Positions 20,151 through 35,542 of a stretch of DNA of 64,000 nucleotides are shown here, piece after piece. The notes beneath the pieces are model-generated. The model was not told the DNA's origin, searched no databases, and was given only the letters and a program-made list of their open reading frames with translations. This DNA is from Anaerolineales bacterium (GTDB lineage: Bacteria > Chloroflexota > Anaerolineae > Anaerolineales > UBA4823). The stretch covers positions 203,613 to 267,612 of the forward strand of contig PQAL01000033.1 in NCBI GenBank assembly GCA_003105035.1, read 5' to 3'. Both the position numbers and the translations under genes were made by a program. Every line of letters starts with the position of its first letter. Positions within the stretch are counted from its first letter, which is position 1.

Positions 20151-21374
20151 TTATTTCGGGGATATATTGAGATTTTCAGCCATATAAGGCAATACTTCGT
20201 CAATTTCGGTTGCATTTTGACCGACTGGGTGCAGTTGAGTGCAGTTTGAGTGCAGTTTTATTGGAGTGATGAGATTATCAATGAGAGTTGCAGCGTTACG
20301 TTGCTGACTGTCAGTCGAATGTGAATATGTATCGAAGGTCATGCTTATTTTTGAATGCCCCAGGATACTAGCAACCGCAGTGGCTGGGATCCCATTATTT
20401 ATCATAATAGATGCAGCCGAGTGACGGCAATCGTGAAATCTAATTCTAGGCAATCCTGGGGGCAGAAGTCGTTTGAAAACCTGAATCATGTAGCTCGCAC
20501 AAATCGGACCACCTATTTCATTCGTGAAGATCAAGTCATAGTCGATCCACTTGTTGCCGGCTGCAATTCGCATTAATCTCTGTCGCTCATAATGATCCCG
20601 CAAAACCTGGATAATCTGTTCTCCAATTGGAACAGTGCGTTTGGAAGATTTCGTCTTCAGCGGTTGGAACATAGCGGATGAGTTAGGGCTTTTACTAAGT
20701 TGCCATTCGATCCTGATGGTATGCTCAATCCAATCGAGGTTCTCCCAACGGAGACCAAGAAGTTCACTCCTGCGCATTCCTGTTGCCAGAGCCAGGTGGA
20801 ACAATGCCACCCATCTATGTCCATCCACAGCTGCAAGGAATTGACTGGCTTGATCTTCAGACAGAATCTTTCTCTTCACTTCTGACTCCTTTGGAGGATG
20901 AGCAGAAGATACAGGATTCCGAATAATTATGCCATCATCTACAGCTGCTCTGAGTGCGCTATGCATCAACTTGTGGATCTTCATCACCGTAGGTATTCCA
21001 ACATCCTGGTCTTGCAGGCGGACATATAAAACTCTCAAATGTGCTGTCTTCAAATCCTTCAGAATGATATTGCCAATATTGGGAGCAATATACATACGAC
21101 ACAGCTGGCTATAATGAGACCAAGTGGATGGCCTCATTGCACCTTTTTCAGCGACCAGCCAATCATCGAGATATCTACCAAGTTTTACTTTGGCACTGGC
21201 GTAGTTCAGTCCATCGTCGATTTGATTCTGGGTGTGCCTGATCCAATCCAGGCAAGCCTGCCGGCTTTTTGCTGTAAAACTCAACCGGTGTCCCTGCAGG
21301 GTGAATTGAACACGCCATTTTCCATTCGGCATCTGAAGTATGGTTCCCTCGTTATTGCCGCGTCTTTTCGCCAT
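20151..21374 (-). CDS. int: Tyrosine recombinase (phage-type integrase)
   Basis: A 407-residue site-specific recombinase. Residues about 1-60 form an arm-binding domain (GTILQMPNGKWRVQFTLQG), about 65-160 a SAM-like core-binding domain, about 175-390 the catalytic domain. All six active-site residues are visible: Arg in ATGMRRSELLGLRW, Lys in LKTKSSKRTVPIG, His and Arg in FHDCRHSAA, His in LGHSKISMT and the nucleophile Tyr in DTYSH. The protein should be active. It is the outermost gene of the element and is transcribed outward. Decayed relatives of its C-terminal part lie at 56.3 kb and possibly 58.2 kb. Confidence 0.95.
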   Translation of the reverse strand: MAKRRGNNEGTILQMPNGKWRVQFTLQGHRLSFTAKSRQACLDWIRHTQNQIDDGLNYASAKVKLGRYLDDWLVAEKGAMRPSTWSHYSQLCRMYIAPNIGNIILKDLKTAHLRVLYVRLQDQDVGIPTVMKIHKLMHSALRAAVDDGIIIRNPVSSAHPPKESEVKRKILSEDQASQFLAAVDGHRWVALFHLALATGMRRSELLGLRWENLDWIEHTIRIEWQLSKSPNSSAMFQPLKTKSSKRTVPIGEQIIQVLRDHYERQRLMRIAAGNKWIDYDLIFTNEIGGPICASYMIQVFKRLLPPGLPRIRFHDCRHSAASIMINNGIPATAVASILGHSKISMTFDTYSHSTDSQQRNAATLIDNLITPIKLHSNCTQLHPVGQNATEIDEVLPYMAENLNISPK

Positions 21375-22940: not shown

Positions 22941-25169
22941 TTAACACTCCCTTATTTTCAACCCTAAATAAGACTTGTTACCGTCCTTACCACTTAAAAA
23001 GCCATGTTCTTTTAACCGGTTGGTGACCCAGATCTTGGAATGCTTACGGAGCTCATCCTCTCCCTGCTCCTGGCACCAATTTCGCCAGGCTGTATAAAAC
23101 TTATCCTTCTCGATCGAAAAATCGGGGTGTTGCTCGCAGTTCTCGGTGATAAATTGCATCACCTGGTCCTGCTCGGTCCTGTATTCGATGGTCGCCTGTT
23201 TGACCGCCTTGGGCATCTGTAACCCATCATTCTTCCAGAATACGCATCCCAGGATAGCCCAATTTAAGATCCCCGGCATTTCTTTACCAAAGGTATCCAT
23301 GAGCTCTCCCATCGGTCGCTTTACGTCATCTGGGATCGTCACTGGAAAAGGCACCACCCGGATCCGCCTCCAGAAACCCAGATCGGTCCCCTCCACTTTC
23401 GGTTTGTGATTGCCATACAGCCATATCTTGTGGCTGGGTTCAAAAGTGAAGGGATTTGAGAATAGAAAGCGTGCGGTAACTGCATCGCCACCGGTGAGAT
23501 CCTTGGCGAGTGATTCATTGATCTTACGGCTCGCGGCGATCTCAGACGCCAACACTAATCTTGCGCCAGCCATTGCTGCAATGTGAGGATTAGCCACCGT
23601 GCCTAAGTTCCGGTTTGCCATCAGTGCGTCGATGTCGATCCGCTTGGCATAATCACCCAGTAAACGCCTGATCACCTCCGTGAACACACTTTTCCCATTT
23701 TGCCCAAGCCCGAATAAGAAAAACAGGCAATGCTCGTCGATCCGCCCGGTGAGGGTATATCCGACAGCTTTCTGTAAGAAATAAGCTGATTCCTGGTCCC
23801 CGCCAGTGAATAGATCCATGGATTTTTCCCATTCCTGGCATTGCGCTTTTGGGTCGAATTCAACATTCGAGATCTTGGTGAGCATGAGGGCTGGATCATG
23901 GGGCAACAGGTTGCCAGTGGTGAGATCGATAACCCCGTTGGCCACATTGAATAGCATCGGGTGGGTGTCCAGCTCTTCAGGTCTTACCCCCACATAAGGT
24001 TTTACACATGCCAGCATGTTTTCGATGTGAAAACGCGCCTCCGATCGGAGGGCATGTTTGGCGGTCGCCTGGCGAGTTTGATCATCTTTTGCATTATTCG
24101 CCTCAATGTAGATCGCCCGGACTGTTTCATGTGCCAGCCGGTAGATCTCAGCGGAATCGTCCACCATCCAGCGCCGGCCATCCCAGCTCAGCCATTTTTC
24201 CCAGGCAAAGCAATACCTGACCCTATCCCGGTGCATGGCTAAAAATCGTTCTGCGTTTCCCAGGTCAGTGAATGGGTATTCTGATTGCTTATTCTTAATC
24301 CACTCCACGACACCATTGATCTCATCATCTGACACAGGATGATCACCACTATCAAAACGCTCATCCCTGATGGTCTTGAGGGTAGCCCTGATCTCCTCTT
24401 CACCCATGCCGGTCTTCCGTAAGCTGCCTGCAATAGAGGTCAATGACTGATGCCTCTCCCCCTGGTTGATCACTTTTCCCAGACGAGCTGCAGCCGTCTT
24501 AGTTTGGACTGGCAATGACCTCACATGACCGTTCAATTTCGACCGGATCCAGGTTGGCAATTCGATCACTTCGGTATCGCTAGGATTCAGCTCGAATTTA
24601 TATGGATTGGTGGTGGAGCTGGGTGGCACCAGGACGTAACCCGAATTGGCACGAATATCCACTCCTTGCCCTAGAACCCCTGCCCCGGACCTGATATCGG
24701 TCCCCTCTGGGTACAAAAAGTAAAGGTGCTGACCCCGGTTTCCGGTAGCCACTGTCACCGTTTCTATGGGACCTGGATTTTCCTCCCTCATCAGATCCCA
24801 GGTATGAAAGCCGCCCGTCTCGTGATCAATGTCGAGAACAATGATTCCAGATCCGCCGGCTTTTTTATCACCGGTCCTTAGTCCCCAATTTGCATCTGGC
24901 CATCGATCATGCCATTGCTTGATCTGGTCAAGATCCGTCGTGGCTGAATAGAAGCCGTTCTCGACGAGGGGATGTTTTCCAGGACTTGTGCAGTCTGATC
25001 GGCCGCATGAGCAGTGACCGTTCATCATCCAGGTAACAGGGAAGATCGGCCAACCCCTGTTAGCATAGAACCGCAGTTTTGAAAACTTGATATCTTCCAT
25101 GCTCAGCATTGATTCGGGAGGGGTTTTATTTGAAGAACACCCCTCCAATCGATCACCAGGGAATGTCAT
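22941..25169 (-). CDS. Primase-polymerase / D5-type SF3 helicase replication protein (P4-like)
   Basis: A 742-residue replication initiator. Residues about 30-220 are a bifunctional primase-polymerase domain (WPIFPVTW, CSCGRSDCTSPGKHP zinc/Prim-Pol motif, WGLRTG, IIVLDIDHE with the metal-binding Asp pair, GNRGQHLYF). The centre is a D5_N region (CFAWEKWLSWDGRRW) and the C-terminal part a superfamily 3 helicase with Walker A GLGQNGKS and IWLYGNHKP. This set primes and unwinds DNA for autonomous replication of satellites and plasmids. Start is placed at 25169, overlapping the SSB-like gene by 17 bases; translation further upstream (to 25262) would duplicate the end of that gene in another frame and is unlikely. 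Confidence 0.9.
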   Translation of the reverse strand: MTFPGDRLEGCSSNKTPPESMLSMEDIKFSKLRFYANRGWPIFPVTWMMNGHCSCGRSDCTSPGKHPLVENGFYSATTDLDQIKQWHDRWPDANWGLRTGDKKAGGSGIIVLDIDHETGGFHTWDLMREENPGPIETVTVATGNRGQHLYFLYPEGTDIRSGAGVLGQGVDIRANSGYVLVPPSSTTNPYKFELNPSDTEVIELPTWIRSKLNGHVRSLPVQTKTAAARLGKVINQGERHQSLTSIAGSLRKTGMGEEEIRATLKTIRDERFDSGDHPVSDDEINGVVEWIKNKQSEYPFTDLGNAERFLAMHRDRVRYCFAWEKWLSWDGRRWMVDDSAEIYRLAHETVRAIYIEANNAKDDQTRQATAKHALRSEARFHIENMLACVKPYVGVRPEELDTHPMLFNVANGVIDLTTGNLLPHDPALMLTKISNVEFDPKAQCQEWEKSMDLFTGGDQESAYFLQKAVGYTLTGRIDEHCLFFLFGLGQNGKSVFTEVIRRLLGDYAKRIDIDALMANRNLGTVANPHIAAMAGARLVLASEIAASRKINESLAKDLTGGDAVTARFLFSNPFTFEPSHKIWLYGNHKPKVEGTDLGFWRRIRVVPFPVTIPDDVKRPMGELMDTFGKEMPGILNWAILGCVFWKNDGLQMPKAVKQATIEYRTEQDQVMQFITENCEQHPDFSIEKDKFYTAWRNWCQEQGEDELRKHSKIWVTNRLKEHGFLSGKDGNKSYLGLKIREC

Positions 25170-25629
25170 TATCCGGCGGTTCAGTGGGTGGAGGCGGAGT
25201 GGGTGATGGTGGGACCAAGGATGCAGCTGCAACCGATTTAGCCTTGGTGTGAGGAGCTGCAATTACATCCATGATCCGGTTAAAGTCACCACCGTCCTTC
25301 GTGTATCGTTCTACATTGACCAAAACTCTTTTATTAATCAACCTGGAGGCAAGAAAATCCGCAGCTGGATCGAATTCATTGGCTAGGGCTGCTCGAGCCC
25401 ATCGATACAATTTTGATTTTTCGCTGTAATTCGCTGAGCACCAGGCGAGCAGGTCAACACTTCCCTCGGTATATTCCAAACCTTCGATACCGTCGGTCAG
25501 CACGTGGAACATGAGTTTTATTTGTTCGCCAAAATTACCGGTCGTTTTTTCCAGACTGTTGATTGTCGCCCGGTAAGTTCCAGCTGGTATCAATAAGAAT
25601 GTTTTTTTGGGTATAGAAAAATCGCTCAT
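25153..25629 (-). CDS. Single-strand DNA-binding-like protein with SSB-type C-terminal tip
   Basis: A 158-residue protein. The first 120 residues are beta-rich (GTYRATINSLEKTTGNFGEQ, then LINKRVLVNVERYTKDGG), compatible with DUF669-like phage ssDNA-binding proteins. A Pro-rich linker (PPSPTPPPPTEPPD) leads to the terminus DNDIPW, very like the DDDIPF tip by which SSB recruits repair and replication enzymes. This suggests a functional SSB analogue acting with the primase-helicase whose gene overlaps its stop. Good SD (AAAAAGGAG). Confidence 0.65.
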   Translation of the reverse strand: MSDFSIPKKTFLLIPAGTYRATINSLEKTTGNFGEQIKLMFHVLTDGIEGLEYTEGSVDLLAWCSANYSEKSKLYRWARAALANEFDPAADFLASRLINKRVLVNVERYTKDGGDFNRIMDVIAAPHTKAKSVAAASLVPPSPTPPPPTEPPDNDIPW

Positions 25630-26285: not shown

Positions 26286-27098
26286 CTATTGAGTTCTAAT
26301 CGAGTTCCAATTTTGTATTATATACTCGAGCCGTTTTAGCGCTTCTGCTCGTGTTTTATATGCCAGCTTATAAAATCTTCCATCCTTCTTGATTAACCCC
26401 AATTCCACTGCTTTTTGTAAGTATCTATAGAACCTGCCCTTTGATACAACCGGATAACCATTTTCACTTCCAAATGTGCTGGATAAAAAGTCATCTATTT
26501 CTCTACCGCCGATATACGGCCTATTTACCCATTCTATGCATGCTTTTAAGTAATTATGTAATTTAAATAATGATTCTGTAGATTCCAAATTCGTATTCTC
26601 GATAGCCACAGGGTGATCATCAGCATTGCTAATAATTTCTAATTTTTGCTTATTATCTAAATCCTCATAGTTAAAACCTAAAATACTATTTCGCAAAGAT
26701 TTCCTGGCATCCGGGTAATCGTGACTAAGGTCTTTTAGTAAGGAGTTGAAAATCTCCCACAGATTTTTTTTTGGCCAACCAACTGGCTCCCAAAATGTAT
26801 ACTCTATTTTAAATCGATGATCGCTCAGTCGTTGACTAGTGACAGTGATAATCTCAGCAGTCTGTCCATTGTACGTGCATTGAATGGCAATAAGTGAATC
26901 GAAGTCAATGGAGAATTCTAAAATTTCCAAGTATTTGTTTTCATCTATTTCTTTTTGACCGTTCATGATGTCTTCGAAATTTTCTGGCTCGGTGTAGATC
27001 TTATTTGGTCGTATGCGTCCCTTCAGCCATTGCCAGAAAGGCTTAATGCTGCGCATATCTTCAAGCTCGAAACAAAATTGGGAGACCTCTACTTCCAT
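26286..27098 (-). CDS. Hypothetical protein with possible C-terminal winged helix
   Basis: A 270-residue acidic protein, start at 27098 chosen because AGGAG is four bases upstream. The last 70 residues (GGREIDDFLSSTFG ... SKGRFYRYLQKAVELGLIKK ... AYKTRAEALKRLEYI) have the rhythm of a winged helix. The rest shows no known family. Base composition is AT-richer than chromosomal neighbours. It is the last minus-strand gene of the element, divergent from the defence operon, so a regulatory role is possible but not shown. Confidence 0.6.
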   Translation of the reverse strand: MEVEVSQFCFELEDMRSIKPFWQWLKGRIRPNKIYTEPENFEDIMNGQKEIDENKYLEILEFSIDFDSLIAIQCTYNGQTAEIITVTSQRLSDHRFKIEYTFWEPVGWPKKNLWEIFNSLLKDLSHDYPDARKSLRNSILGFNYEDLDNKQKLEIISNADDHPVAIENTNLESTESLFKLHNYLKACIEWVNRPYIGGREIDDFLSSTFGSENGYPVVSKGRFYRYLQKAVELGLIKKDGRFYKLAYKTRAEALKRLEYIIQNWNSIRTQ

Positions 27099-27527
27099 GA
27101 TGCTCCTGCTCTGCAATTAAAAAAATTGCCCGCTTTCGCGAACAACCTGAATGCTAAATAATTCAAATTGCCGGCTGCGCACATCAGCTTGGTTCGCTCC
27201 GAATGATCCTTCATCAAGGAGTTTTTTTCGAATGCACCCGGTCACTGCTCCGTGTGGTCATACACTGCGGAGCGATTGGTTTTCCTATATCGTTATCATA
27301 CCATAAAACAGAACAATTATTCTAATTACAAAATAAGAAATCATTGGTTTACCTACAATGTTTTGTAAATCCTTATGGACATTATCCGAATTTAAATACA
27401 TAATGGATAGCTAAGATGTAGAAAATCCATTTTGGGCTATAATCCTTTCAGCGCTATTCAGCATCTGTTACCAGGCAATCCAACCATAAACTTGCGATCT
27501 TTCCAGATTGCTCCTTTGGGGGCGAAT
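27099..27527. other. Divergent control region between element core and defence operon
   Basis: About 430 AT-rich bases without a gene. Seen: an imperfect hairpin with GCTCCG (27247-27252) pairing with CGGAGC (27268-27273), and a TATAAT at 27438-27443 that could be the -10 of the plus-strand operon, though no good -35 is visible. This is the likely switch region for the defence genes. Confidence 0.45.
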
Positions 27528-27586: not shown

Positions 27587-30500
27587 ATGGACAATCCTTT
27601 TTTTAGCCACCCTATCCTTAACTCTCCTTACGAATACCCATCACGGCATTGGGAGCTTGATATGGATGGGCAACCGACTCAGCTGATCATTGAGCACCGT
27701 CGCAGCGCTGAGTTTATAACCCCAATTCCAAAACCCAGGAAACGAAAACATTCCACCGCTCCATCAACTGAACAATTGGCAATGATCCTCGATGAGGGGG
27801 AAGGACTTTCCACCAGCGAACAGCAGTACGACCCCACGGGAAATATCAATCTCGTCAGGAATTTTGTGGACCAATGGCGGATGATCCCCGACCCCAATGA
27901 TTGGAAGGTGACCCCCGAGACCGCCCGCCTGCTGCAGCACTGGAGAAAGCACCAGTTCGCGGATATCCGCCCTTTCTTCTGCCAGGTGGAGGCGATCGAA
28001 ACCCTGATCTGGCTGACCGAGGTTGCCCCCAAGGGAGGAAAGCGCGAGAAAGACCTGCTGGAGAGACTGGCAGCCGCGAGCAATGAAGCCAATCCGGGTC
28101 TTGAGCGTATCGCCATAAAGATGGCGACCGGTTCGGGAAAAACAACTGTCATGGCGATGATCATTGCCTGGCAGACGATCAATTCTCTCAGGTACCCCAC
28201 AAGCAACAAATTCACCCGTGGATTCCTGGTAGTGACACCCGGAATCACCATCCGCGACCGTCTGCGGGTTTTACAACCCAACGACCCCGACAGCTATTAC
28301 GACAGCCGCGAGCTGGTGCCCAGCGATATGCTACCAGACCTGCTTAATGCCAAGATAGTGATCACCAATTTCCATGCATTCAAACTGCGTGAGCGCATTC
28401 CACTCTCCAAGGGCACACGCTCCTTGCTGCAGGGTCGGGATGAAGAGCTGAACACGCTGGAGACCGAAGGCCAGATGCGGCAGCGCGTGATGCCGGAGCT
28501 GATGGGAATCAAGAACATCCTGGCTATCAATGATGAGGGACATCACTGTTACCATGAGAAGCCAGGTCCTGAAGAGGAGGAACCACTGACCGGGGATGAG
28601 CGCGAGGAAGCAGAAGCGAATAACGAGGCGGCGCGCTTGTGGATAAATGGCTTGAAGACCGTCAGTACCAAGATTGGCTTGCAGCGCGTGCTTGACCTTT
28701 CAGCTACCCCATTCTTCCTCAGGGGCTCCGGTTATGCGGAAGGGACGATCTTCCCCTGGACGATGAGCGATTTCTCGCTCATGGATGCCATCGAGTGTGG
28801 GATCGTCAAACTGCCGCGGGTTCCTGTGGCGGATAACATCCCCGGGGGTGACATGCCCAAGTTCCGCAATATCTGGGAGCATGTGGGGAAGAAGATGCCC
28901 AGGAAAGGTAGGGGAAAATCCAAAGATCTGGACCCGCTCAGCCTGCCGGTGGAGCTGCAGACTGCTCTGGATGCCTTGTATGGTCACTATGAGCAAACCT
29001 TCGCTCTCTGGCAGCAAGCCGGCATCAGCACGCCACCCTGCTTTATTATCGTCTGCCAGAACACCTCCATATCCAAACTGGTATATGACTTCATCTCAGG
29101 CTTTTTGAGGGAAAACGAAGATGGGTCGTCGGAACTGGTGCCGGGACGATTGGAGTTATTCTGCAATTTTGATGAGTATGGTAATCCATTAGCGCGCCCG
29201 AACACCCTGCTGATCGACAGTGAGCAGCTTGAATCGGGTGAAGCATTGGACCCAAACTTCAGGAAGATGGCAAGGGATGAAATTGAGCGTTTCAGGCGTG
29301 AGATCCTCCAACGCACCGGTGACCAGCACCAGGCAGAAAACATCACCGACCAGGACCTGCTGCGTGAAGTGATGAACACCGTCGGCAAAATGGATCGTTT
29401 GGGAGGTGGCATCCGCTGCGTGGTCTCAGTTTCCATGCTGACCGAAGGTTGGGATGCCAACACCGTCACCCATATCCTGGGGATCAGAGCATTTGGAACC
29501 CAATTGCTGTGCGAGCAGGTGGTCGGGCGTGCCTTACGGCGCCAATCTTATGACCTGGATGAGGAAAATCTCTTTAAGGTGGAATACGCCGATATCCTGG
29601 GGATTCCGTTCAATTTCACTGCCAAACCGGTCATTTCCAAACCGCAGATACCGCGTCAAAATGTTCATGTGCATGCAATGCGACCGGAAAGGGATGCGCT
29701 CGAAATCCAGTTCCCACGCGTGCAGGGCTACCGGGTGGAGCTGCCCAATGAGCGCCTGGAAGCGAAATTTACCGAAGATTCAACCCTGGTGCTAACCCCT
29801 GACCTGGTGGGACCATCCATCACCGTAGATGCAGGGATCATCGGTGAAGGAGTGGATTTAACTCTGAAATATTTGGAGGACGTGCGCCAATCGACCATTC
29901 TATTTCAACTCACCAAACGCCTGCTGTACACGCACTACCGCGACCCAGATAAGGATCCCGAGCTACACCTATTCGGGCAGCTCAAACGCATCACCAAACT
30001 GTGGCTGGATAATCACCTGGTTTGTAAAGGTGGCACCTACCCAGCCCAGCTGATCTACCAGGAATTAGCCGACATGGCATGCCACCGCATCCATACTGCC
30101 ATTACGCGCCGTTTTGAGGATTCCCAGCCTATCCGGGCCGTGCTTGACCCCTACAACCCAACCGGGTCGAGTATGTTCGTCAACTTTTATACCTCCAAAC
30201 CCAGCCGCTGGCAGACCGACTCGCGTAAATGCCATGTGAATTGGGTGGTGACCGATAGTGATTGGGAGGCTGAACTGTGCCGAGTGGTTGAGTCGCACCC
30301 ACGCGTGCGGGCTTATATCAAGAACCAGGGACTTGGGCTGGAAGTGCCTTATCTATACGGCTCGCTGGTACGCAAATACATCCCCGATTTTATCGTTCAG
30401 GTGGACGATGGGCACCCAGACCCGTTGAACCTGGTCATCGAGATCAAGGGATACCGGGGAGAGGATGCCAAGGAAAAGAAAGCCACGATGGAGACCTACT

Positions 30501-30646
30501 GGGTGCCAGGGGTAAACCACCTGGGCACCTATGGGCGCTGGGCGTTCCTGGAGCTCAAGGATGTCTATTTGATAATGGATCAATTTGCCAGCAAGGTTGA
30601 TGAAGAATTGAATAAAGCCAGCCAAAACACGCTGGTACCGTCATAG
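27587..30646 (+). CDS. Type III restriction Res-like SF2 helicase with C-terminal PD-(D/E)XK nuclease
   Basis: A 1019-residue restriction subunit. Helicase motifs: Walker A ATGSGKT at 180-186, DEGH (motif II) at 316-319, SAT (motif III) at 372-374, and the SMLTEGWDANTVTHI / QVVGRALRRQ motifs V and VI near 620-660. The C-terminal domain shows Pro933-Asp934 and Glu952-x-Lys954 (IPDFIVQ ... VIEIKGY), a PD-(D/E)XK nuclease. It resembles the restriction endonucleases annotated as BPTD_3080-like rather than classical EcoP15I Res. It should translocate on and cut unmodified DNA together with the Mod protein encoded 10 bases downstream. Confidence 0.88.
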   Translation: MDNPFFSHPILNSPYEYPSRHWELDMDGQPTQLIIEHRRSAEFITPIPKPRKRKHSTAPSTEQLAMILDEGEGLSTSEQQYDPTGNINLVRNFVDQWRMIPDPNDWKVTPETARLLQHWRKHQFADIRPFFCQVEAIETLIWLTEVAPKGGKREKDLLERLAAASNEANPGLERIAIKMATGSGKTTVMAMIIAWQTINSLRYPTSNKFTRGFLVVTPGITIRDRLRVLQPNDPDSYYDSRELVPSDMLPDLLNAKIVITNFHAFKLRERIPLSKGTRSLLQGRDEELNTLETEGQMRQRVMPELMGIKNILAINDEGHHCYHEKPGPEEEEPLTGDEREEAEANNEAARLWINGLKTVSTKIGLQRVLDLSATPFFLRGSGYAEGTIFPWTMSDFSLMDAIECGIVKLPRVPVADNIPGGDMPKFRNIWEHVGKKMPRKGRGKSKDLDPLSLPVELQTALDALYGHYEQTFALWQQAGISTPPCFIIVCQNTSISKLVYDFISGFLRENEDGSSELVPGRLELFCNFDEYGNPLARPNTLLIDSEQLESGEALDPNFRKMARDEIERFRREILQRTGDQHQAENITDQDLLREVMNTVGKMDRLGGGIRCVVSVSMLTEGWDANTVTHILGIRAFGTQLLCEQVVGRALRRQSYDLDEENLFKVEYADILGIPFNFTAKPVISKPQIPRQNVHVHAMRPERDALEIQFPRVQGYRVELPNERLEAKFTEDSTLVLTPDLVGPSITVDAGIIGEGVDLTLKYLEDVRQSTILFQLTKRLLYTHYRDPDKDPELHLFGQLKRITKLWLDNHLVCKGGTYPAQLIYQELADMACHRIHTAITRRFEDSQPIRAVLDPYNPTGSSMFVNFYTSKPSRWQTDSRKCHVNWVVTDSDWEAELCRVVESHPRVRAYIKNQGLGLEVPYLYGSLVRKYIPDFIVQVDDGHPDPLNLVIEIKGYRGEDAKEKKATMETYWVPGVNHLGTYGRWAFLELKDVYLIMDQFASKVDEELNKASQNTLVPS

Positions 30647-30656
30647 AGGTAAATCA

Positions 30657-33479
30657 ATGGCAAGGAATAACCACAAGACGAAAAAATCTGTTGAATCTAT
30701 CAAACACACCGAGGCTTCACGGACGCACATCCCTACTGCAGAGTTCCAGTCCGTGTTGAGTGAGGAGCTGCAAAGCCCAATCCAGGTTGCTTACCAGCGC
30801 CGGAACCCAGACCTGGACCCGCAGCTGGTGTGGCGGGGCAAGGACTTGCAGGATTGGTCTGATCTGGTCGTGCAAGCCCCACCGCTCTATATCCAGGAGA
30901 AGATCCAGCCCAAGGTGCTAATTGACGACCTGCTTCGCCATACCGAGAAAGCGGAGAAAGCCGGTATCCCCCAACAGCTGGATATGTTTGCGGATTTCAA
31001 CGGACTGCCCAGTGAAGCCGCCAAAACCGAGTTCTACCAGCACGAGGCTAACTGGAGCAACCGCATGATCCTGGGTGACAGCTTGCAGATAATGGCATCA
31101 CTTGCTGAAAGAGAAGGTCTACACGGGAAAGTGCAGTGTATTTATATTGACCCTCCATATGGTATTAAATTCAATTCAAATTTTCAATGGTCAACAACCA
31201 GCCGAGATGTGACGGATGGTAAAGCGGATCACATCACCCGCGAACCAGAGCAGGTAAAAGCATTTCGTGATACTTGGCGAGATGGTGTTCACTCTTACCT
31301 TACATACCTTCGTGATAGATTGACCATCGGACGTGATTTACTCACCGAATCTGGAAGCCTAATTATTCAAATTGGTGATGAAAATGTACATAATATAAGG
31401 GAATTGATGGATGAAGTTTTTGGGACAAGTAATTATGTTGCTACTATTTCATTTACAAAAACTAGTGGTCAAACAAAAACTAGTTATGTACCGATAGCAT
31501 CTGATTATTTAATTATCTATGCCAAGAATAGCAATGTAATGAAATATCGACAGATTTTTGTTCCCAAAACTCTTGGAGGAGAAGGATCGAAAGAACATAG
31601 GAATATTGAGTTAATTGACGGCACAACGCGCTCGACACCAATTACCCAGGATGAAATCAGAGATCTATCTTCCCTACCTATAGGTTCTCGTGTCTATGCA
31701 ACAGGCCCGATAGTTTCACAGGGATCGTCTAGGGAAGGATCTGCTGATATACAGGTAGAAGCTGATGGTAAAAAATTTGTACTTAGTTGTGGACCTCGAC
31801 GACATTGGTCAGTCGGTGTAGATGGCACAAAATTATTATGGAAGATTGGACGCCTTGTTCATGCAGAAGGATTACGGATTTTTAAACGGTTTTTCAATGA
31901 TTTTCCTTATTCACCATTAACGAATGTATGGACAGATACACGTGGTGAAACTGATATGAGTTATGTTGTACAGACATCGACTCGTGTAATTGAACGTTGT
32001 ATATTAATGTTGACTGATCCAGGCGATCTTGTTCTTGATCCAACTTGTGGCTCTGGAACAACTGCATTTGTAGCAGAGCAGTGGGGAAGAAGATGGATCA
32101 CAATTGACACATCGCGAGTGGCTCTAGCGTTAGCACGTGCTAGAATTATGGGTTCAGTATTTCCGTATTATATGCTTTCAGATTCACAAATAGGGCAGCA
32201 AAAAGAAGCTGAACTTAATCATAAAGGTTTTTCAAATAATCCAACATATGAAAATATCAGGCAAGGTTTTGTATATGAACGTGTTCCCCATATTACATTA
32301 AGTTCTATTGCAAACAATAGTGAATTATTTGTGATTTGGGAAGAGTATCAGCATGAATTTAGTTTACTACTCGATCAAATAAATCTGCTCCTACATAAAG
32401 GTTGGCATGAGTGGGAAGTGCCTAAAACTGTAAATATTGATTGGCCTCCTCAAGTAAAAAAAATACATGAAAAATGGTGGCAATTGCACGTCGACCGTCG
32501 AAAAGCAATCGATGCATCTATTGCTGCTAACACAGATAATGAATACTTATATGATCAACCGTTCCAAGAAAATCGAAAGGTTCGGGTAGCTGGACCTTTT
32601 ACAATTGAAAGTCTCTCACCTCATCGCGTCCTAGGGGTGGACGAAAATGATGAGCTGATTGATCAAGTAGCGGAGGGGAAAACCGGCTATGCCCCTGGGC
32701 AGAGCTTCGAGCAAATGATTCTAGAAAACCTCAAAACTGCCGGTGTGCAGCAAGCGCATAAAGAAGACAAGATCAATTTCTTCTCCCTCACCCCCTGGCC
32801 AGGGTATTACATCTCTGCCGAAGGGCGCTACTTCGAGGGTGATGAAGAAAGAGGCCGCGAACGACGGGCAGGGATTTTCATCGGTCCAGAATTTGGCACC
32901 GTAGGTCGGCCCGACCTGGTGGCTGCAGCGCGTGAGGCGGGAGATGCCGGCTTCGATGTGCTGGTAGCTTGCGCGTTCAATTATGATGCACGTTCCACCG
33001 AGTTCAATAAACTAGGTGCCATCCCGGTGCTCAAAGCGCGCATGAATGCCGATTTACATATGGCGAAGGACTTGAAAAGCACAGGCAAGGGCAACCTGTT
33101 CGTCATCTTCGGCGAGCCGGATATCGATATTCTGGAGGCGGAAGATGGGCAGATCCAGGTAAAGATCAATGGGGTAGATGTATTCCACCCCGATACAGGC
33201 GAAGTGCGCAGCGATGGCGCTGAAGGAATCGCCTGTTGGTTTATTGACACCGATTACAACGAAGAGAGCTTCTTTGTTCGGCATGCTTATTTCCTGGGTG
33301 CCAACGACCCCTATTCCGCCCTAAAGACCACACTCAAAGCTGAGATCAACGAAGAAGCCTGGGAATCACTCCACAGCGACACATCACGTCCCTTTGATCA
33401 ACCTGCCTCCGGTCGCATCGCGGTCAAAGTCATCAACCACCTGGGGGATGAGGTGATGAAGGTCTTCAAGGTGAGATGA
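30657..33479 (+). CDS. Type III-like site-specific DNA methyltransferase (Mod), mosaic
   Basis: A 940-residue beta-class amino-methyltransferase. The catalytic motif IV DPPYGIKF is at 165-172 and the AdoMet motif I DPTCGSGTTAF at 461-471, the order typical of type III Mod proteins; the region between and after them should hold target recognition. The C-terminal 250 residues (from FFSLTPWPGYYIS) are a long extension without methyltransferase motifs, containing GIFIGPEFGTVGRPDLV. Bases from about 31.09 to 32.63 kb are strikingly AT-rich with different codon use, while both gene ends match the flanking Res and helicase genes, pointing to replacement of the catalytic/recognition core. SD AGAGG precedes the ATG. 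Confidence 0.9.
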   Translation: MARNNHKTKKSVESIKHTEASRTHIPTAEFQSVLSEELQSPIQVAYQRRNPDLDPQLVWRGKDLQDWSDLVVQAPPLYIQEKIQPKVLIDDLLRHTEKAEKAGIPQQLDMFADFNGLPSEAAKTEFYQHEANWSNRMILGDSLQIMASLAEREGLHGKVQCIYIDPPYGIKFNSNFQWSTTSRDVTDGKADHITREPEQVKAFRDTWRDGVHSYLTYLRDRLTIGRDLLTESGSLIIQIGDENVHNIRELMDEVFGTSNYVATISFTKTSGQTKTSYVPIASDYLIIYAKNSNVMKYRQIFVPKTLGGEGSKEHRNIELIDGTTRSTPITQDEIRDLSSLPIGSRVYATGPIVSQGSSREGSADIQVEADGKKFVLSCGPRRHWSVGVDGTKLLWKIGRLVHAEGLRIFKRFFNDFPYSPLTNVWTDTRGETDMSYVVQTSTRVIERCILMLTDPGDLVLDPTCGSGTTAFVAEQWGRRWITIDTSRVALALARARIMGSVFPYYMLSDSQIGQQKEAELNHKGFSNNPTYENIRQGFVYERVPHITLSSIANNSELFVIWEEYQHEFSLLLDQINLLLHKGWHEWEVPKTVNIDWPPQVKKIHEKWWQLHVDRRKAIDASIAANTDNEYLYDQPFQENRKVRVAGPFTIESLSPHRVLGVDENDELIDQVAEGKTGYAPGQSFEQMILENLKTAGVQQAHKEDKINFFSLTPWPGYYISAEGRYFEGDEERGRERRAGIFIGPEFGTVGRPDLVAAAREAGDAGFDVLVACAFNYDARSTEFNKLGAIPVLKARMNADLHMAKDLKSTGKGNLFVIFGEPDIDILEAEDGQIQVKINGVDVFHPDTGEVRSDGAEGIACWFIDTDYNEESFFVRHAYFLGANDPYSALKTTLKAEINEEAWESLHSDTSRPFDQPASGRIAVKVINHLGDEVMKVFKVR

Positions 33480-35542
33480 TGGAATTCCGCATTGCTGACA
33501 CGTTCGTCGACAGCCTGGGCAAGCTGAGCAACCCCGAGCAGAAGGTGGTTAAGACCACTGTGTTCGATCTGCAGGTCAATCCCGCCAGCCCGGGTATGAG
33601 CTTTCACAGACTGGATCGTGCACAAGACACCAATTTTGCCTCAGTGCGCGTGAGCGATGATATCCGCTTGATCGTCCACCAGGGGGAAAACAGCCTGTTG
33701 ATCTGTTACGTCGGTCACCATGACAACGCCTACCAGTGGGCGTCCAGGCGCAAGCTCGAAACACATCCAACTACCGGCGCAGCCCAGCTGGTGGAGGTGC
33801 GAGAAACCGTTCAGGAGATCATCATCCCCTCTTACGTGGCTGTTGAGATGCCCAAACCTCCACTGTTTGCTGGTAAATCTGAAGCTGAGCTACTTTCCTA
33901 CGGTGTCCCTCCTGAATGGCTGGAGGATGTGCGCTCTGCCACCGAGGACAACTACCTTGACTTGGCTGATCACCTGCCTGCAGAAGCCGCTGAAGCGCTG
34001 CTTGAACTGGCGGTAGGAGGCGAACCTCAACCTTCGCCGGTACCTGCAGCTGTTCTAGATCCCTTCGATCATCCCGATGCACTCAGACGGTTCCGAATCA
34101 TGAGTGGGATGGACGAACTCCTACGCGCTCTTGAGTATCCCTGGGAAAAATGGACCATCTTCTTGCATCCTGAGCAGCAAAAGATTGTAAGCGGAAATTA
34201 TAGCGGTCCGGCACGCGTTTCCGGCTCGGCAGGGACCGGCAAGACGGTAGTTGCGCTTCATCGAGCTATCTACCTGGCAAAGATGAATCCTGAGTCAAGG
34301 ATTCTCCTGGCAACATTTTCCGAGACCCTCGCTAATGCCTTAAAAAATAAAATACGAATGCTGATTCAAAACCAGCCGCGCTTGGCAGACCAGATTGAAG
34401 TCTATGCGATGAACGCTCTCGGTGAGCGGCTTTATAAATTAAATTTGGGGAATGTTCAAATTGCTTCCGCTGAAACTATCCAGGCATTATTATCTGAATC
34501 TTCGAAAATGGTCGGAGGGCACACCTTCAATCTTCACTTTCTAACTACAGAGTGGAACCAAGTGGTTGATGCATGGCAATTGAATACTTGGGAGGCTTAT
34601 CGCGATGTTTTACGGCTGGGCCGTAAAACGCGACTCACGGAGCCACACAGAAAAACTCTATGGTCGATATTCGAGCTAACCCGGTCTGCACTGAAGGAAC
34701 ATGTGCTGATTACCAATGCAGAGCTTTTTAGCCAATTGGCAACGTTTTTCTCAGCAGGTCAACGGGCACCCTTTGATTTTATAGTAATCGATGAATCCCA
34801 GGATATTAATATTCCTCAGCTCAGGTTGTTAGCAGCGCTTGGTGGCGATCATCCAAATAATCTTTTCTTTGCTGGAGACCTGGGCCAACGAATTTTCCAG
34901 CAACCATTTTCATGGTTGGCATTGGGAGTGGATGTGCGTGGCCGATCGAAGACCTTACGTATCAATTATCGCACCTCGCACCAGATTCGCACTCAATCTG
35001 ACAAACTGCTTGGCCCTGAAATTGCCGATGTGGATGGCATCACTGAAACACGCAGCGGAACGATCTCTGTTTTCAATGGACCACCCCCAACGATTGAGTC
35101 ATTTGGCGATGAAGCCTCTGAAATAGAAGCGGTCGCAGTCTGGCTTAAAGAGCGTATTGATGATGGTTTACATCCTGAAGAAATCGGGGTTTTTGTTCGA
35201 TCGGATGCTCAAATTTCAAGGGCAAAAGCTGCGATTGAAAATGCTGAAGTTACCTACAAAGTACTTGACCAGAAGATTGAGACAATGGTTGGACATGCGT
35301 CCTTATGTACGATGCATCTGGCAAAAGGTCTTGAGTTCCGGGCAGTGGTTGTAATGGCTTGTGATGATGAAGTCATACCTTTGCAGGATCGGATAGAACA
35401 GGTAACGGACACATCGGATCTGGAAGATGTCTATAACACCGAACGGCACTTACTCTATGTAGCATGCACGAGGGCACGCGACCATTTGCTGGTTACCGGC
35501 GTGGAGCCAGCATCTGAGTTTTTGGATGATATGAGGATGTAG
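33476..35542 (+). CDS. RelE/ParE-like domain fused to UvrD-type SF1 helicase
   Basis: A 688-residue protein whose ATG overlaps the Mod stop by four bases. Residues about 1-95 read like a RelE/ParE toxin fold (FRIADTFVDSLGKLSNPEQK, then FASVRVSDDIRLIVHQ and LLICYVGHHDNAYQWA). After a linker, residues about 220-688 form a superfamily 1 helicase: Walker A GSAGTGKT at 250-257, DESQD at 439-443, NYRTSHQIR (motif IV), TMHLAKGLEF (motif V) and YVACTRARDHL (motif VI). Tight coupling to Res and Mod implies a joint function in defence. Whether the N-terminal part is a ribonuclease, a gyrase poison or only a regulatory domain is unknown. Confidence 0.85.
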   Translation: MMEFRIADTFVDSLGKLSNPEQKVVKTTVFDLQVNPASPGMSFHRLDRAQDTNFASVRVSDDIRLIVHQGENSLLICYVGHHDNAYQWASRRKLETHPTTGAAQLVEVRETVQEIIIPSYVAVEMPKPPLFAGKSEAELLSYGVPPEWLEDVRSATEDNYLDLADHLPAEAAEALLELAVGGEPQPSPVPAAVLDPFDHPDALRRFRIMSGMDELLRALEYPWEKWTIFLHPEQQKIVSGNYSGPARVSGSAGTGKTVVALHRAIYLAKMNPESRILLATFSETLANALKNKIRMLIQNQPRLADQIEVYAMNALGERLYKLNLGNVQIASAETIQALLSESSKMVGGHTFNLHFLTTEWNQVVDAWQLNTWEAYRDVLRLGRKTRLTEPHRKTLWSIFELTRSALKEHVLITNAELFSQLATFFSAGQRAPFDFIVIDESQDINIPQLRLLAALGGDHPNNLFFAGDLGQRIFQQPFSWLALGVDVRGRSKTLRINYRTSHQIRTQSDKLLGPEIADVDGITETRSGTISVFNGPPPTIESFGDEASEIEAVAVWLKERIDDGLHPEEIGVFVRSDAQISRAKAAIENAEVTYKVLDQKIETMVGHASLCTMHLAKGLEFRAVVVMACDDEVIPLQDRIEQVTDTSDLEDVYNTERHLLYVACTRARDHLLVTGVEPASEFLDDMRM

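Follow-up and report, generated by a model that had tools for sequence, protein, structure and literature searches.

A type III-like Res-Mod operon closed by a RelE-UvrD protein, with a variable cargo slot in its relatives

The classical type III restriction systems EcoP1I and EcoP15I combine a beta-type Mod with a Res that carries an SF2 helicase and a PD-(D/E)XK nuclease, and the classical gene order is mod-res. In Gabija (GajAB) a UvrD-like protein is encoded beside a nuclease gene, and to our knowledge GajB has no RelE domain; in Cami1, which has a CRISPR role and whose structure is cA4-bound, a RelE-fold part lies within a larger chain. The closest parallel to the locus described here is ARMADA type II (ArmABCD), a DNA-methylase/helicase defence operon closed by ArmD, in which a RelE fold is joined to a UvrD/GajB-like helicase and which a 2025 preprint presents as an essential subunit (PMC12458937). 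Protection is reported there to need all four genes, to be lost in an ArmD Walker A mutant and to occur without growth arrest; the RelE domain is mentioned in two places in the main text, in which no RelE mutant was seen (PMC12458937). An extra effector within a restriction operon is also described for type Ic systems with PrrC (PMC3710099, PMC12707154), where, however, the effector PrrC combines a tRNA nuclease of the HEPN type with an ABC ATPase.

The locus lies in a window of 64,000 nucleotides, the whole stretch of DNA that was analysed, and has the following features.

20151..21374, minus strand: tyrosine integrase, left side of the probable carrying element (Pfam Phage_integrase 5.5e-31)
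22941..25262, minus strand: Prim-Pol/D5 primase-helicase, probable carrying element (Pfam Prim-Pol 3.2e-39, D5_N 3.1e-35)
27587..30646, plus strand: Res, SF2 helicase with C-terminal PD-(D/E)XK nuclease, BPTD_3080 family, 1019 aa
28124-28147, plus strand: Res motif I, key residues conserved in 39-40 of 40 sequences
30383-30448, plus strand: Res PD..ExK, key residues conserved in 39-40 of 40 sequences
30657..33479, plus strand: Mod, type III-like DNA methyltransferase, DPPYG then DPTCGSG, 940 aa
33476..33479, plus strand: Mod/RelE-UvrD junction, ATGA overlap, main cargo slot in relatives and empty here
33476..35542, plus strand: RelE-UvrD (ArmD-like), 688 aa, last gene of the operon (Pfam UvrD-helicase, UvrD_C)
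33479..33796, plus strand: predicted RelE-fold domain, residues 2-107 (AlphaFold model, Foldseek, VIA-align, conservation)
33665-33667, 33719-33721 and 33731-33733, plus strand: R64, H82 and Y86, present in 85 of 85 sequences
33797..34159, plus strand: linker and conserved middle region, residues 108-228 (alignment; model confidence low in parts)
34160..35533, plus strand: SF1A UvrD-like helicase core, residues 229-686 (Walker A 34223-34246)

An earlier note on this DNA had described three genes in one orientation, the first two 10 bases apart and the last two overlapping by 4 bases, and open reading frames are found at exactly these positions on the plus strand. The operon genes are probably transcribed together; scans for promoters and terminators gave matches at the level of shuffled sequence, and an Rfam scan gave none at gathering score.

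Res matches the NCBIfam model NF046055 (BPTD_3080 family) over residues 7-1003, with 1329 bits against a cut-off of 800, and carries DExH-helicase motifs I, II and VI together with PD...ExK. The models of classical type III Res do not recognise it, PADLOC REase_III giving 21 bits at best and Pfam RE_endonuc scoring 18.8, below its cut-off of 23.4, and we therefore call it type III-like only; the general ResIII model is passed (35 against 22.5), and no PDB match was found at 0.001. Mod is recognised by PADLOC MTase_III (PDLC03632, 1322 bits) and by Pfam N6_N4_Mtase, and matches EcoP15I Mod with 54 bits. Its DPPYG precedes DPTCGSG, which is the beta-type order, and both motifs are invariant in 53 of 53 sequences. 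The intact nuclease site and complete methyltransferase motifs that had been proposed for this pair are thus borne out by key residues that are invariant, or nearly so, across 40 Res and 53 Mod sequences. The conservation and distance sets comprise 39 Res, 52 Mod and 84 RelE-UvrD sequences from 84 loci, plus the window (40, 53 and 85), rows with less than 85% coverage or with stops being left out. The locus resembles classical type III systems in its beta-type Mod and in the make-up of its Res, but differs in the distance of this Res from the classical models, in having Res before Mod, in its third gene and in the cargo slot of its relatives. The BPTD_3080 entry itself names one protein, not a system, and many members are without RelE-UvrD in the stretch examined.

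The third gene had been read as a RelE-like domain joined to an SF1 helicase, and both parts are recovered. The key SF1A residues (Walker A, DExQD and the motif VI arginines) are retained in 85 of 85 sequences, and Foldseek ranks UvrD, PcrA and Rep as the top matches to a model of the complete protein that is of intermediate quality. The N-terminal domain is predicted to adopt the RelE-superfamily toxin fold: the AlphaFold model of this part (pLDDT 88.6) matches YafQ with Z 12.0 over 86 residues (rmsd 2.1), YoeB with Z 10.7, RelE with Z 9.8 and Cami1 with Z 8.4. Pfam gives no match for this N-terminus, and residues 1-225 searched as a profile against PDB sequences match none; hhalign of the RelE part gives meaningless alignments with E. 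coli K-12 YafQ and RelE, and with YoeB a forced, low-probability alignment (3.5) that contains a residue match at R65 and H83. Conservation is highest in the RelE part (0.85, against 0.75 for the helicase), and R64, H82 and Y86 are present also in the three ARMADA-type rows of the alignment. The alignments for the structural work drew on 39 and 31 of 80 loci plus the window, and the tree on every second row and five more. A stand-alone toxin-antitoxin system was rejected: the domain belongs to a helicase protein, the Mod gene runs into its start, no ORF of at least 60 aa that could encode a separate antitoxin lies beside the fusion, and no plus-strand ORF of that size begins between 35542 and 36026.

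Judged by sequence homology to ArmD, the RelE-UvrD fusion itself is not new. The window protein shares 31% identity over residues 6-674 with its homologue in a plasmid operon that has an ARMADA type II-like order by annotation and size, only its DruE/YprA-like gene and its last gene having been tested; this order is absent from the window. ArmD is partnered by two helicases, one BrxHII-like and one YprA-like, and by a PglX-like methylase. In the window the partners are a type III-like Res and Mod, whose Pfam and listed PADLOC matches include no ArmA, ArmB or ArmC family, and membership of ARMADA type II was rejected despite the ArmD-like protein. GajB models are among the best PADLOC matches to RelE-UvrD (88 bits), yet no GajA OLD-family nuclease adjoins it, its neighbours being Res, Mod and, downstream on the other strand, the gene for a B12-binding protein, and Gabija membership was likewise rejected. 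Since ARMADA-like operons also use RelE-UvrD, the protein is not specific to restriction pairs.

A census covered the best 80 among at least 548 relatives. In 71 of these loci, or 71 of the 73 that are informative, Mod (fragments included) is encoded upstream in the same orientation, and seven of the nine others have less than 1.2 kb of upstream DNA; a fortuitous neighbourhood was rejected on this count. The two exceptions, L089 and L113, keep an open RelE-UvrD frame with no Res-Mod within 10 kb, and just upstream lie an integrase in L089 and Gabija-like genes in L113, as might be the case in rearranged remnants. No good Mod match occurs in the L089 genome, and pieces of Mod lie on other contigs of the L113 genome. 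In nine plasmid contexts the neighbours are Res and Mod in five and ARMADA-like giant helicase and methylase genes in four, and placement beside random genes, which would have told against the proposed system, was not seen. The distance matrices of the three proteins correlate at r 0.71-0.85 (39 sets), RelE-UvrD and Res at 0.85, and none of 2000 permutations was as high, although such tests on related sequences overstate significance. Conversely, RelE-UvrD is absent from six of 12 close Res-Mod pairs and from all 29 divergent ones, some of them on short contigs (20 of 21 Res matches were fetched, G338 being left out). As such pairs exist, RelE-UvrD is an add-on that is dispensable to Res-Mod. 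The suggestion of a working component finds support in the conserved neighbourhood of the third gene, in the way its protein co-varies with those of the other two genes, and in its position at the operon end. We are confident that the three components are inherited together as a genuine unit that has a cargo slot and most likely serves defence.

The most unusual feature of the operon is the slot between its second and third genes, which could not be seen from the window sequence alone because it is empty there. The interval from Mod to RelE-UvrD exceeds 400 bases in 54 of 70 loci; cargo is found less often between Res and Mod. Within the operon intervals 122 of 126 ORFs of at least 150 aa are co-directional; outside them the share falls to 95 of 167 on the downstream side of RelE-UvrD and to 22 of 37 on the upstream side of Res, and RelE-UvrD closes the operon as its last gene. 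The cargo includes complete defence systems, with IetAS, SIR2-HerA and Dsr1 among its contents; PADLOC matches were obtained for seven of ten chosen representatives, scanned singly, and the remainder are candidates (Pfam and PADLOC summaries cover the first 25 families). Close loci seldom have cargo in common (one of 14 pairs at 80-90% identity). Because co-directional modules precede RelE-UvrD in many relatives, it is the constant last gene, behind a slot whose contents are exchanged.

The statement that the operon lies inside a mobile element holds for its left side, where the integrase and primase-helicase are both upstream and on the opposite strand. No right end and no flanking direct repeats were found among 20 of at least 60 repeat families, and an empty site is not demonstrable, since relatives of the host gene adjoining the integrase are at best 43% identical. 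Six phage records have RelE-UvrD matches, none covering 80% of the protein.

Among the matches listed from open-licence PMC literature, none describes the combination of Res, Mod and RelE-UvrD, and none a cargo slot within it. The earlier note's view that no described system has exactly these genes stands for the set as a whole but not for its parts, as the BPTD_3080 family in NCBIfam, the Mod in PADLOC and ArmD are already named. We found no publication in which RelE-UvrD ends a Res-Mod operon of the BPTD_3080 family and is preceded by a variable slot.

We tentatively favour an antiphage type III-like restriction system in which RelE-UvrD forms a second stage and the operon serves as a chassis. 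Mod would mark host DNA, and Res, with Mod, would recognise unmarked incoming DNA and then translocate along it or cut it. For the third protein, where we are a shade more hesitant, the mechanism would be recruitment to the resulting single-stranded or broken DNA, on which the ATP-driven motor would work, while the RelE-fold domain, with its mRNA-interferase-like residues, would attack RNA, most simply the invader's transcripts as they are made or translated. As its chassis role implies, many relatives carry other defence modules, in the same direction, in the interval from Mod to RelE-UvrD. GajB, a characterised relative of the motor, is reported neither to unwind nor to bind DNA in vitro (PMC10681800), and the RelE-UvrD motor may therefore be an ATPase subunit only. 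The earlier note's idea of a second effector for failed restriction is conjectural, and the non-abortive mode of action reported for ARMADA argues against suicide as a default outcome.

A somewhat unlikely alternative is that RelE-UvrD is a DNA-processing partner, its helicase unwinding or clearing Res-cut DNA for host nucleases and its RelE fold serving only for docking or nucleic-acid binding. The retained SF1A residues and the Foldseek ranking are consistent with this, as is the report that ARMADA acts without growth arrest (PMC12458937), but pure docking would not obviously need the RelE part to be the best conserved, with R64, H82 and Y86 exceptionless. Less likely still is a PrrC-like guard, in which Res-Mod silences a RelE toxin that phage inhibitors of restriction set free, so that infected cells stop translating. 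A type Ic operon that houses PrrC offers a precedent (PMC3710099, PMC12707154), no separate antitoxin ORF of at least 60 aa adjoins the fusion and the slot holds other defence modules as well; however, the ArmD-bearing ARMADA is reported to protect without growth arrest (PMC12458937), and L089 and L113 keep an open RelE-UvrD away from Res-Mod, with no good Mod match in the one genome and Mod pieces on other contigs in the other. That RelE-UvrD is a hitchhiker, a further independent defence gene using the operon promoter, is very improbable: Res-Mod pairs without it, the two loci that carry it without Res-Mod nearby and the independent systems in the slot all fit, but cargo rarely persists between close loci, yet RelE-UvrD stays after the cargo and co-varies with Res.

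These observations show that the RelE-helicase subunit of ARMADA type II is common to a quite different and widespread restriction family, and its role is therefore testable with three genes instead of four with giant helicases. The slot provides a simple marker for finding defence modules. We consider it improbable that RelE-UvrD acts generally as a switch between DNA-restriction machinery and effectors further downstream. Fixed in last position after Res-Mod and after the ARMADA helicase-methylase set, it would sense the DNA that the first line produces and, by RNA cutting or through its motor, license the module in the slot. If this were true, immunity would be modular here, with the operon as a chassis whose effectors can be exchanged.

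The operon consists of three open reading frames on one strand, and the coordinates, 10-base gap and 4-base overlap given for them in an earlier note match exactly:

Genes of the operon in the window
27587-30646, + strand, gene 1, Res (helicase-nuclease), 1019 aa
30657-33479, + strand, gene 2, Mod (methyltransferase), 940 aa
33476-35542, + strand, gene 3, RelE-UvrD (RelE-fold domain and SF1A helicase), 688 aa

Res and Mod are separated by 10 bases, and Mod and RelE-UvrD share an ATGA overlap, leaving empty the interval that in many relatives holds extra genes (the cargo slot). Res belongs to NCBIfam NF046055, 'BPTD_3080 family restriction endonuclease' (1329 bits; cut-off 800), and a single PADLOC type III methyltransferase model covers nearly the whole of Mod (1322 bits). 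In RelE-UvrD, Pfam finds a UvrD-type SF1 helicase and has no match to the N-terminus. The key catalytic residues of all three proteins are invariant or nearly so across 40 Res, 53 Mod and 85 RelE-UvrD sequences, the window included. Integrase and Prim-Pol/D5 primase genes lie to the left of the operon, and a search for the ends of the carrying element did not find them. Two genes of this probable element, at 26286-27116 and 25153-25629, diverge from the operon and have no Pfam match.

Relatives of RelE-UvrD were collected by scanning one genome per species, which gave at least 548, and the best 80 were analysed. In 46 of these 80, both Res and Mod precede RelE-UvrD on its own strand, and in 24 Mod alone is seen, the Mod match starting less than 70 bases from the edge of the available stretch in 17 of them; these counts include fragments, such as the visibly broken remnants at loci L090 and L093. 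Neither gene is nearby in the other 10, seven of which have less than 1.2 kb of upstream DNA. Since those seven can be set aside, and the contig of L055 carries Res and Mod ∼10 kb further upstream (L154), Mod is upstream in 71 of 73 informative loci among the best 80 of at least 548 relatives. In L089 and L113 neither Res nor Mod occurs within 10 kb, and an integrase gene (L089) or Gabija-like genes (L113) immediately precede RelE-UvrD, as in possible remnants. Among viral contigs, Mod is upstream in 8 of 11 loci; of the other three, L219 begins within the gene, and the upstream DNA amounts to 0.9 kb in L221 and to 5.8 kb, with no Mod, in L223. Pairwise distances in 39 near-full-length sets correlate at 0.71 (Res-Mod), 0.75 (Mod-RelE-UvrD) and 0.85 (Res-RelE-UvrD), values reached by none of 2000 label permutations in a test that shared ancestry inflates. 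The tree rows cover 12 named phyla.

Among plasmids, 92 records match RelE-UvrD, 43 of them over at least 80% of the protein, and of nine contexts inspected five carry Res and Mod and four a giant helicase with an N6-type methylase gene, partners other than those in the window. The window order occurs on plasmids of two Pseudomonas, Sphingomonas and Shinella, with broken frames in some, and in Tistrella mobilis (L011:10001-18050) RelE-UvrD adjoins Res and Mod yet is on the opposite strand.

Viewed from Res, the association is looser. Res above the family cut-off is present in 32 of 301 genomes of the window's phylum and in 18 of 321 genomes of a second class, and longer stretches were inspected for partners at 33 of 33 and 20 of 21 matches respectively. 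Twelve of 24 close Res loci (at least 57% identity) are informative, in that the end of Mod is reached with at least 5 kb after it, or RelE-UvrD is present; the remaining 12 are cut short, extend less than 5 kb past Mod, or have an incomplete Mod. RelE-UvrD is present in 6 of the 12, the window included, or in 5 of 11 if L184, a short stretch with broken frames, is left out. Within the available stretches it is absent from all 29 loci whose Res is of the divergent groups (29-49% identity), several of these loci being on short contigs. Because so many Res-Mod loci lack it, we conclude that RelE-UvrD is an add-on to one branch of the Res family, itself nearly always found after Res-Mod. Some Res-Mod loci, several of them from the divergent Res group near 30% identity, have the reverse order, with Mod before Res (L147; L140, L143, L149 and L150).

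The distance from Mod to RelE-UvrD, in the 70 loci with Mod on the same locus, is below 100 bases in 13, 100-400 in 3 and above 400 in 54, reaching 9,876 bases. Within the operon intervals, 122 of 126 ORFs of at least 150 aa are co-directional with the operon (104 between Mod and RelE-UvrD, 18 between Res and Mod), whereas outside it the figures are 95 of 167 after RelE-UvrD and 22 of 37 before Res; RelE-UvrD thus behaves as the closing gene, with the extra genes internal to the operon. In 39 of 53 cargo-bearing loci the nearest upstream ORF (mechanically called, at least 80 aa) ends within 30 bases of the RelE-UvrD start or overlaps it. Res-Mod gaps of 0.5 to 2.4 kb are also found in pairs without RelE-UvrD, and this second slot is therefore independent of it.

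The cargo sorts into 80 clusters, of which 23 recur. Of ten hand-picked representatives scanned singly, three had no PADLOC match and seven matched PADLOC models, namely IetA and IetS (L065), SIR2 and HerA (L052), Dsr1 (L066, 1647 bits), PDC-S06 (L101) and a type IIG enzyme (L083). Further cargo types identified through Pfam include GmrSD, Fic, RhuM, YhcG nuclease and ABC-3C components. Cargo turnover is fast: a common cargo family is shared by 1 of 1 locus pairs at >90% RelE-UvrD identity, 1 of 14 at 80-90%, 10 of 91 at 75-80%, 23 of 350 at 70-75%, and 21 of 922 at lower identity. Partial second starts of the RelE-UvrD gene lie in the cargo interval at L119:5877-6092 (58%, residues 1-76; L179 at the same place) and L046:8769-8900 (61%, residues 2-45), looking as if modules had arrived through recombination or together with a second copy of the gene's beginning.

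Our search of open-licence PMC literature found no account of the Res-Mod-RelE-UvrD set or its slot. The classic embedded effector is PrrC within a type Ic R-M operon (PMC3710099, PMC12707154). A closer comparison is ARMADA type II, the four-gene ArmABCD defence system. On a Klebsiella plasmid (L197) the gene order, judged by annotation, fits this set; the giant helicase there scores 337 bits against DruE models, and its last protein shares 31% identity with the window RelE-UvrD over residues 6-674. The latter is thus a homologue of the subunit ArmD within a different system. A rough tree separates window-type from ARMADA-type proteins, on long branches and with unsettled bootstrap. An ARMADA-like RelE-UvrD gene also lies near a type III-A CRISPR cluster on a Thermus plasmid (L005:7989-17977). 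In the ARMADA report (PMC12458937, bioRxiv 2025), deletion of any gene abolished protection, as did an ArmD Walker A mutation, and a Walker B mutation lowered it. RelE-UvrD might be proposed as a plain suicide effector; that report describes ARMADA as non-abortive, with cells bearing it remaining viable, which counts against such a role (PMC12458937).

The N-terminal region of RelE-UvrD (residues 1-115) is modelled by AlphaFold from 32 sequences with a mean pLDDT of 88.6, and its top PDB folds are RelE-superfamily toxins: YafQ is best (Z 12.0, rmsd 2.1 over 86 residues), followed by YoeB (Z 10.7) and ribosome-bound RelE (Z 9.8), with ParE-labelled chains mostly scoring about 9 to 9.5 and Cami1 reaching 8.4 through its RelE-like part. 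Arg64, His82 and Tyr86 are kept in 85 of 85 sequences, and are invariant in 38 of 38 once three ARMADA-type proteins join the alignment. A forced alignment with YoeB, low in probability, places Arg64 and His82 on Arg65 and His83, catalytic residues of that toxin; alignment with YafQ and RelE gave nothing usable. Mean majority frequency is highest in the RelE part (0.85), against 0.75 in the helicase and 0.72 in the linker, and such extreme conservation argues against the fold being a mere docking part. The model of the complete protein has middling quality (pLDDT 73.3, pTM 0.45), its closest folds being UvrD, PcrA and Rep. The L003 protein (L003:10004-12097) is labelled a 3'-5' exonuclease in its record, as in several other plasmid records; this may be an annotation artefact, because the Pfam matches are to helicase families.

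We infer that RelE-UvrD serves as a second stage after Res-Mod. Res and Mod would discriminate self from non-self by methylation, and RelE-UvrD would act downstream of them, on translocated or cut DNA, through its motor and its RNase-like domain.
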